NCBI GenBank assembly: GCA_963971535.1
Contig: OZ020585.1
Location: forward strand, 25,947,159-26,011,158
From: Notolepis coatsorum
Taxonomy: Eukaryota; Chordata; Actinopteri; Aulopiformes; Paralepididae
Direction: 5' to 3'
Length of the DNA: 64,000 bases
Positions 12,901 through 15,900 of the stretch are shown piece after piece. The notes beneath the pieces are model-generated. The model was not told where the DNA came from. It did not search any database and was given only the letters and a program-made list of their open reading frames with translations. Every line of letters starts with the position of its first letter. The first letter of the stretch is position 1. The position numbers and the translations under genes are program-made.

Positions 12901-15900
12901 AGGCCATCTCACAGGAGAGGGCCTTGGTTCAACAGCTCCTCGGAGAGGCAAACTCTCCACCGGACGCAGCTCGGGTGCGTCTGACTGCCACGACCGTGGA
13001 GTCAGCGCAGCCCCACGACGCACGCCGGAGGCGGCAATGGAGAACCGCTGGTGAAGGGTGACGTTGTGAGCGCTCGAACCACTCGATGAAGACATTATAG
13101 CTTAGCTTTTTCTCTAAAATTGGTGAGAGAGAGAAAAAACAAGAAATAATGTCAACGCAGCTCCTCTTCAATATTTCACTAATCTCAAAGTGGTGTATAC
13201 AGACACTCGCCGTGGTGAAAACAAAGAAGGAGCTGTTAGTATGGCCACACCCCTGCTTATGTAGAGGAGCGGATGGGGGTGTGGCCAGGCGAATAGGTGT
13301 GTAAAGGTGCATGTGGAGATTTATTCAGTGCTAGTACTGATACAGGGATGTATTCCAATAGACGCAGAGCGGAGCTACACGACCTATAACTCACCTGACA
13401 ATCATGTCCAGCCAAAACTCACCTGACAATCATGTCCAGCCAAAACTCACCTGACAATCGTGTCCAGCCAAAACTCACCTAAAAATTGTGTCCAGCCAAA
13501 ACTCACCTAACAATTGTGTCCAGCCAAAACTCACCTTAAAATTGTGTCCAGCCAAAACTCACCTTACAATGGTGTCCAGCCACAGCCAGATGTCAGTAGA
13601 ACCTGTCTCCATCCAGTGCCACCAGTTCTTCTCTCTCATTAGGTTGTCCTCCTCCTCTGAATCACCTGAAGGAGAACCAATAGATCTCTTCATAGAAATA
13701 CAGGGACATCCAGGCTGCTTGAAGCCTTTTTACAACGCATTCGCGTTTCCGGGTTCCCGTTTTGCGCTCTGATTGGCCCAGTCATGTGACATGAGCGCCA
13801 ATCGTGGGACGGCAAGTTTCTACACTGGTTAAGCTTAGGCACTCTTCGAAGTTGGTTAAGGTTAGCGTTTGTCTTAGAGCGTGACGGCAAGTTCTTTCGC
13901 CGGTTAAGCTTAGGCACTCTTTCGAAGTTGGTTAAGGTTAGAGTTTGTCTTAGAGCATGGCGATAGAACGCCAGGTAGTTTGCAGGCTGTTCGACGCGGA
14001 AATGGGCAAACACGCTATTGGGCGCACATGTTACATGACCTGGCCAATCAGAGCGCCGGAAACGTGGATGCGTTGTAAAAAGGCTACACGCATCCAGGCT
14101 ATCCAGATGACATTCAACAACAGAATTGTTTCCAAATCGATGCAATTCACTCATTCTCCACAAGAGGGCCTCAAAACCCCTGAATCTGGTGTCCTCTAGT
14201 ATTTGATAACCAAATACAGGTATCGAAACATAGTTTTTAATATGTGAGCGTGAATGCGGATTTACTTCAGGGCATAATAAATTATCATACCCGCTTCAGA
14301 TCCATTGGGCCTCTGTGTCTCATACAGCCCGGCATCTGTCAGCACCACAATATTACATTCCTGGAGTGCAAGAGACATAAAGCAGATGGTTAGAATACCA
14401 ACAGTTTATTGAAACCGGAGCTCATGAGCCCATACAAAATAGCACAAGTGTTTTGAGTATAAACATGAAGCTACATGTGCTTATTAATCATCATTGTGAA
14501 TTTCCTTAGCGGACGATAAAACAAAAGACAATACGATACGCAAAGTGGCTTGGCTGTGCCATATTTACTATCCCGAAACATGATGCCTAGATGAAATATA
14601 GGCCAGGTTTCTGCTTGTGATGTGAGACCACTTATAGAGTGATCACAGTATCCGTTCATTCTCCACCTAACAAAGATACAATACGTGTGGGGGGGGGGGG
14701 GGGGGGGGGGGGGTCGTCTTTAGACTGTGGAATGCCTTTATCCCATGTATCACATATTCATCCATGACCTGCAGCACTCAGACACACCCCGACACACTAG
14801 ACTTACCAGCTCTTAGGGACGGCAGAGTAAACTCTGAACAAAACAGCCATCTCCGTTACATCCAGTCAGACCAGTTCAGGCATTAAACTGTAAATATGGA
14901 TACCGTAGCCGACTGGGAAAAGGAATTGTATCCGAAACTGTTACCGTCACTAGATTATGAGATTAAAGAGTTTGCGATAATTGCTGCTTTGTTATCAAAC
15001 AATAAACTCATTATCAAGCAAATCTCTTAAGACTGTTATCTAGTCCATCTCTGTGTTGAGACCTTCTGAATGGAATTTCACAGAAGATTGAGTTTCAGAG
15101 ATTAAGTTATGGTCTTTTATCACAGATTTGAAAAATAATGTTGTTTTGTTGTCGTGCTATAATACATTATCATGTGAGGATCTTCTGGGCAGCTGTTTAT
15201 CTATTGTCTCAGAACGCTGAAGACTAATCAGTTTTGCCTGTCAGATCAGATCAGGTGAGAGGAGGTGAAAGTCACCATGGCGATCATGAAACACATCTCC
15301 TAACGTGAGGCTTGATTGGTTATTGATACTGTAGGTTGTTGTTGCTGGTGTTTTTCTTTTTTTACCTTCTCCGCTTTGATGTCTTGGTTAAACACTGGAT
15401 GAGCATCGTCCATCCCCATCACCAGGATGGCCACCAGGGACCCGGGTTCGAGGACAGTGATGGTGAGGGACACCAGGTCTCCTGGCCTGGCTGTGTCACT
15501 GCTCCAGCTCAGAGACACCTGGGGCCGGAAGCAAGATACCAAGTAACAAGCAAGGAACATTACGTAGATCTGCGACAGTGAAATGTCTTCATCAACACAA
15601 ACTATTTAAGAGCTAACTCCACACAGATATATATATATTAATGCTGTCAATCGATTAAAATATTTAATCAGATTAATCGCATGATTGTCCATAGTTAACT
15701 CGCGATTAATCGCAAATTAATCGCATATTTTATATCTGTTCTAAATCTACCTTAACTCATTGACCGCCAGGGATTAGACGGGGCCATGTGGTCGCATTGC
15801 CACACGTTAAAATATAGGACTGAGTCACCTTGTTTGTAGAGCTATAACTATATTCTATATTATAGCTATGGATACAATACTATGGCCCATTTGACATCAC

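Follow-up and report, generated by a model that had tools for sequence, protein, structure and literature searches.

The 3′ end of an exon, together with its splice donor, forms the repeated unit of a 28-bp minisatellite in a CD109-like gene of Notolepis coatsorum, and this minisatellite is split by a mobile element. The reading that we favour, at a probability of roughly 75%, is that duplication of an exon border gave rise to a neutral minisatellite, that a DIRS1-like element later divided it, and that the first copy remains the main donor. Positions refer to the window, the 64,000-nucleotide stretch of contig OZ020585.1 that was analysed, unless another locus is named (Table 1), and motifs are written in the sense of the gene, which lies on the minus strand. 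The observation made in the first-pass annotation of this DNA is confirmed, and its interpretation is supported in part.

The order of events that we infer begins with a tandem duplication across the exon 17/intron 17 border, which slippage would have expanded into a 28-bp minisatellite growing into the intron. Copy 1 would have been held fixed because it codes for protein, and copies 2–10 would be intronic. Later, a DIRS1-like element would have recombined into one copy, at the GTT of its GTGAGTT, and split the array into seven and three copies. Copies 2–7 would now be decoys, from which transcripts bound for nonsense-mediated decay may leak, and the array as a whole would be a by-product of the general intronic minisatellite load of the genome and not of selection for a ladder of donors.

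A minisatellite at the exon 17 border

The first-pass annotation placed a single array of about ten copies at 13388–13665, with a unit made of the last 17 or so bases of exon 17 plus its donor. TRF confirmed a tandem minisatellite, and an array of seven copies at 94% is no chance feature; a 110-nt array query gave at least three matches in the 3.42-Gb genome, those listed all falling within the two blocks of Table 1. Exon 17 ends in copy 1 (GGCTGGACACCATTGTAAG|GTGAGTTTT), and AG|GTGAGT is kept by 7/7 copies of the right block, as had been claimed. The layout required correction in several respects. Nineteen nucleotides of the unit are exonic; position 13665 is the first base of exon 17, the array itself ending at 13582; and the count of about ten is reached only by including the left block, which lies outside the range first given, on the far side of a 5985-bp insert, so that the supposed single array is in fact divided by a mobile element. 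Once the insert is removed at its 3-nt core, the two blocks join into ten full copies with no break in the 28-bp phase, and CATG is common to copies 6, 7 and 8, across the insertion point.

Table 1. Positions of the exons, array blocks, donors, mobile element and further splice-site arrays.
Feature	Location	Strand	Basis or remark
Exon 17 (numbering of the first-pass annotation), CD109-like gene, 103 nt	13563–13665	minus	CD109 homology without a gap where exons 17 and 18 meet
Exon 18, 118 nt, start of A2M (PF00207) domain	7058–7175	minus	Profile and homology
Right block, seven 28-bp copies	13388–13582	minus	TRF: 28 bp, 7.0 copies, 94%
Left block, three decayed copies (8–10) and a partial copy	7310–7405	minus	TRF: 28 bp, 3.4 copies, 82%
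Donor of copy 1, read as the true donor	GT at 13562	minus	AG|GTGAGT
Further donors, right block	13534, 13506, 13478, 13450, 13422, 13394	minus	All AG|GTGAGT
Donors of copies 8–10, left block	7381, 7353, 7325	minus	GTTGGT, GTGGGT, GTGTGT
DIRS1-like element, 5985 bp	7406–13390	.	AAC/GTT core of one copy's donor
Donor ladder, 57 bp, seven AGT|GTAAGT	L031 7649–8055, contig C8		Other exon of the CD109-like paralog; survey positive
Donor array, 43 bp	Contig C7		GAGGTGAGT kept by just two units within 720 nt; survey positive
Acceptor ladder, exon-18 acceptor and exon start, 5 x 30 bp	C7 paralog L012, with the next ladder within 1731–1892 and 2885–3122		Last 20 intronic nt identical; survey positive
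Acceptor ladder, acceptor of the preceding bait exon, 8 x 30 bp	C7 paralog L012, as above		Last 18 intronic nt identical; survey positive
Two-copy acceptor duplication	Window gene, outside the window		Upstream AG lost; survey positive

On the evidence of homology and domain profiles, the gene is a member of the alpha-2-macroglobulin/CD109 family. The peptide of exons 17 and 18 matched CD109 best (E 7e-9), followed by A2ML1 and A2M, and Pfam cut-offs were exceeded by A2M (PF00207; 25.7 and 26.4 bits vs 21) and by the bait region (PF07703; 32.1 bits vs 22.7), with MG2 fragments (18.9 and 17.7) staying under theirs (32.8). The thioester motif GCGEQ is present in an MPHGCGEQNM exon about 3.5 kb outside the window. 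A probe of human A2M found nine matches in this gene, among them the thioester exon but not exon 17 itself; eight were in order and the ninth overlapped another. Across the genome, seven of nine A2M-domain matches start at profile position 10–12, and the other two are the following exon.

Exon 17 is entered in phase 1 and left in phase 2, and has the acceptor TTGGTTCTCCTTCAG|GT. The exonic part of the unit codes for WLDTIV, which aligns without gaps to the WLDT of CD109. In L006, a paralog on contig C8, the homologous exon end reads TGGCTGTGGCTGGACATCAACACAGG|GTGAAG and is followed by the same intron, likewise in phase 2; TRF on the overlapping locus L014 found no 28-bp array there. The exon 17 border is thus supported by CD109 homology and by the paralog, whose intron has the identical position and phase. 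By the same homology the first 19 bases of the array are coding sequence in origin, which bears out the earlier proposal that the unit derives from the exon end and its donor. A 31-bp array of about 30 copies (24748–25731) is not placed at any recognised exon edge; the closest match to an exon of this gene is about 360 nt away.

The DIRS1-like element

To judge from its junctions, the element is inserted in the GTT of one donor copy (GTGA-GTT). AAC (GTT in sense) stands at both of its ends, and excision leaving one AAC keeps the 28-bp unit intact, so that the 3-bp junction is identical to the target and no target duplication is seen. The ends are inverted over 155 nt (7438–7592 and 13226–13380, 96% complementary), and internal regions are complementary to terminal ones (7642–7688 to 7411–7457, 100%; 7693–7734 to 13349–13390, 98%). 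In the accessible text of PMC3266345, inverted ends with internal complementary regions are given as the DIRS1-like layout, such elements integrate by recombination at three bases shared with the target, which is not duplicated, and TnDIRS1a of Tetraodon measures 5931 bp, with a GTT start and an AAC junction. The present element is like DIRS1-like retrotransposons in each of these features and in its length. It may differ from the coding members of that group, as five of its six frames gave no Pfam match to reverse transcriptase, RNase H or tyrosine recombinase at E values up to 5, and for this reason it is named from its ends only. The sole Pfam hit in those frames was TDP-43_N (E 0.21, below its cut-off); an unassigned ORF of 557 aa is present, and this copy looks decayed or non-autonomous.

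The preserved 28-bp phase of the ten copies, together with the CATG shared by copies 6–8, indicates that the array is older than the element. Intron 17 measures 402 nt without the element and 6387 nt with it. A second, diverged DIRS-like copy occupies approximately 56547–61178 of the window, with inverted ends of 191 bp (94.8%), and is 72–79% alike to the element in the array over four stretches. Two direct repeats of 1377 bp (35986–37362 and 43703–45079; 99.86% identical, 7.7 kb apart), noted from the repeat alone, look like a young LTR-type element.

Reading frame, donor strength and competing readings

The array does offer a ladder of potential donors, with a consensus AG|GTGAGT in seven copies. 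It had further been expected that use of a downstream copy would mostly shift the reading frame and that the sites were equal, and neither expectation survived. Read-through past donor 1 gives AGG TGA, the TGA arising from the G|TGA of copy 1, and all nine downstream donors therefore lead to the same in-frame stop, behind the 34th residue of the exon 17 reading, however many units are added. A frame ladder was accordingly rejected, and what the nine downstream donors form is a stop ladder. Estimated U1 duplex energies differ between copies, at −10.2 kcal/mol for copies 1 and 2, −10.1 for copies 3 and 4 and −11.7 for copies 5–7, with −5.9, −9.4 and −5.6 for the decayed copies 8, 9 and 10. Copies 5–7 are thus predicted to pair better with U1 than copy 1 does, which would mean that the true donor is not the strongest.

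On the basis of reading frame and homology, copy 1 is best read as the only productive donor, and the spliceosome would mainly use it, because any other choice puts a TGA directly after the exon. Real leakage to downstream donors is plausible by analogy with DOK7, where, according to the accessible part of PMC5585400, splicing favours, of two competing donors, the one nearer the intron, also the stronger of the pair; with the stronger copies 5–7 lying nearer the intron, a large share of splicing could go through downstream donors. A role of selection on the donor motif found no support and was rejected: variation spares the eight donor columns to no greater extent than expected by chance, with none of the four variable columns among copies 1–7 (P 0.24) and two of the nine among copies 1–10 (P 0.48) falling within them. 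Adjacent copies resemble each other more closely than they do when the order is shuffled (P 0.0016), and the identity of the proximal donors can be put down to recent copying, as slippage gives.

It is rather unlikely that the ladder is in use, with several copies serving as donors and copy number setting the share of stop-bearing transcripts, so that output is tuned through unproductive splicing and decay. Seven consensus donors, the stronger U1 pairing of copies 5–7, the clean stop from every downstream choice and the precedent of human IFI6 (discussed below) would fit such a role, but the donor columns lack preferential conservation, donors have decayed in the distal copies and, among the genes sampled, arrays at splice sites are no commoner than intronic arrays generally.

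Very improbable, in our view, is an older intronic minisatellite unrelated to the exon, with the match acquired secondarily by gene conversion into the exon or by chance. Divergence from copy 1 is greatest in the distal copies, and the oldest visible copies may therefore lie away from the exon, as such an origin would have it; against this, the 19 coding nucleotides in the unit have homologues in CD109 and in the exon end of the paralog, which has no array. Hardly credible is a role of the copies as recursive splice points, or as a U1 cluster guarding the 6-kb insert from premature polyadenylation, for although seven copies hold AG|GTGAGT, which could be acceptor and donor in one, and seven strong U1 sites stand directly before the long inserted element, the bases leading up to each AG (TTTTGGCTGGACACAATTGTA and similar) make by eye a poor polypyrimidine tract and the array is older than the insert.

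The favoured reading, a neutral minisatellite grown from the exon border, has partial parallels. A minisatellite with multiple splice donors was reportedly described in human IFI6 (6-16, G1P3) by Turri, Cuin and Porter in 1995. Two of its downstream units are reported to be used as donors, giving isoforms, in the accessible part of PMC4526556, and to the extent of that text IFI6 is the closest precedent, with splice donors in the units of a minisatellite that begins at an exon end and with downstream units as potential donors. The present array is unlike it in its 28-bp unit, in the immediate stop from every downstream use, in its downstream donors being putative and in being split by a DIRS1-like element.

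Tandem duplications containing AGGT have been described for ATP2A1, for a 24-bp case in fission yeast and for potato RdRp (PMC4974935, as far as its accessible text extends). They share with our array tandem exonic copies holding AGGT, several in the case of fission yeast genes, but they concern intron gain, whereas here an old intron was enlarged and not created by duplication; intron gain by this route was rejected for the window gene, as L006 shares the position and phase of this intron and lacks the array; the start positions of the A2M-domain matches, given above, were counted against it too. Human segmental duplications contain variable internal tandem repeats, some of them at exon–intron borders, that can change splicing (PMC2812944, same restriction). 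These too are minisatellites with units of about 30 bp, but they vary between recent paralogs and were checked in transcripts, whereas ours is one array in one assembly, known from sequence only. The kind of array is already known (IFI6, human border repeats), and the stop ladder, the DIRS1-like split and the recurrence within one genome set this one apart as a variant. Among the matches listed for full-text literature queries on repeats and splice sites, with CD109 not a query term, there was no splice-site minisatellite in fish, which is not proof of absence.

Splice-site arrays in related genes

Although it had been presented as a lone curiosity, the array has counterparts in the form of donor and acceptor ladders in related genes of the same genome. 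The survey covered four family genes, with exons placed by tblastn and a simple splice score, and started from 43 tblastn matches (86 exon edges), of which seven edges were without a candidate splice site and seven were dropped for a low score or as duplicate or spurious matches. Three sites were added by hand (both ends of exon 17 in the window and the C7 bait-exon acceptor), for a total of 75, comprising 35 donors and 40 acceptors (C7 24, C8 20, window gene 17, C6b 14). In six of the 75, namely the present array and the five other arrays of Table 1, the border 20-mer recurred one or more times within 700 nt into the intron. Of these six, two were hand-added as already known, and a third, the exon-18 acceptor of C7, had been noticed beforehand; leaving out the three sites added by hand brings the count to 4/72. 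All 14 sites of C6b were negative, as were eight further sites in three C1 genes.

Random intronic 20-mers (600 per gene) had such copies in 28% of cases in C7, 23% in C6b, 8% in C8 and 4% in the window gene, from which 12.4 positive sites would be expected vs the six observed (P(X≤6) 0.022). In the two low-density genes, three were observed vs 2.35 expected (P(X≥3) 0.42). The idea that splice sites are enriched in arrays was thus rejected, and there is perhaps a depletion. Arrays with a period of at least 10, as called by TRF, take up 31% of the matched gene span in C7, 27% in C6b and 5.6% in both C8 and the window gene. An economical account is heavy intronic minisatellite growth, at least in the sampled genes, with some arrays starting over exon borders. 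That the genome often seeds border minisatellites, giving many ladders whose allelic copy number would act as a length-tuned dial on output, strikes us as distinctly doubtful.

Use of a downstream donor in the 57-bp ladder of C8 again leads to a stop, and in the three donor ladders examined a premature stop followed from every downstream donor looked at. The exon-18 acceptor ladder of the C7 paralog lies in the intron equivalent to that of the window array, and the bait-exon acceptor ladder precedes it. How splicing chooses between near-identical neighbours is as a rule examined in artificial duplications, and here one genome supplies natural ones, namely donor ladders of 28 bp (seven intact) and 57 bp (seven) and acceptor ladders of 30 bp (eight and five). 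They bear on which copy the spliceosome favours, be it the one nearest the exon, the one deepest in the intron or the strongest, on how a gene survives when a minisatellite grows out of a splice site, and on the share of intron growth that starts at exon borders in repeat-rich genomes.

Two minor observations concern the same gene family. On the minus strand of L012 (2960–2570), two successive bait-region exons end in ETWIWELVHVG and ETWIWDLVSVG and are possibly alternative exons. In two A2M genes on C1, a (GTCT)n microsatellite (L008 1452–1502 and L010 1424–1502) ends 3 nt before the start of exon 18 and constitutes the polypyrimidine tract.
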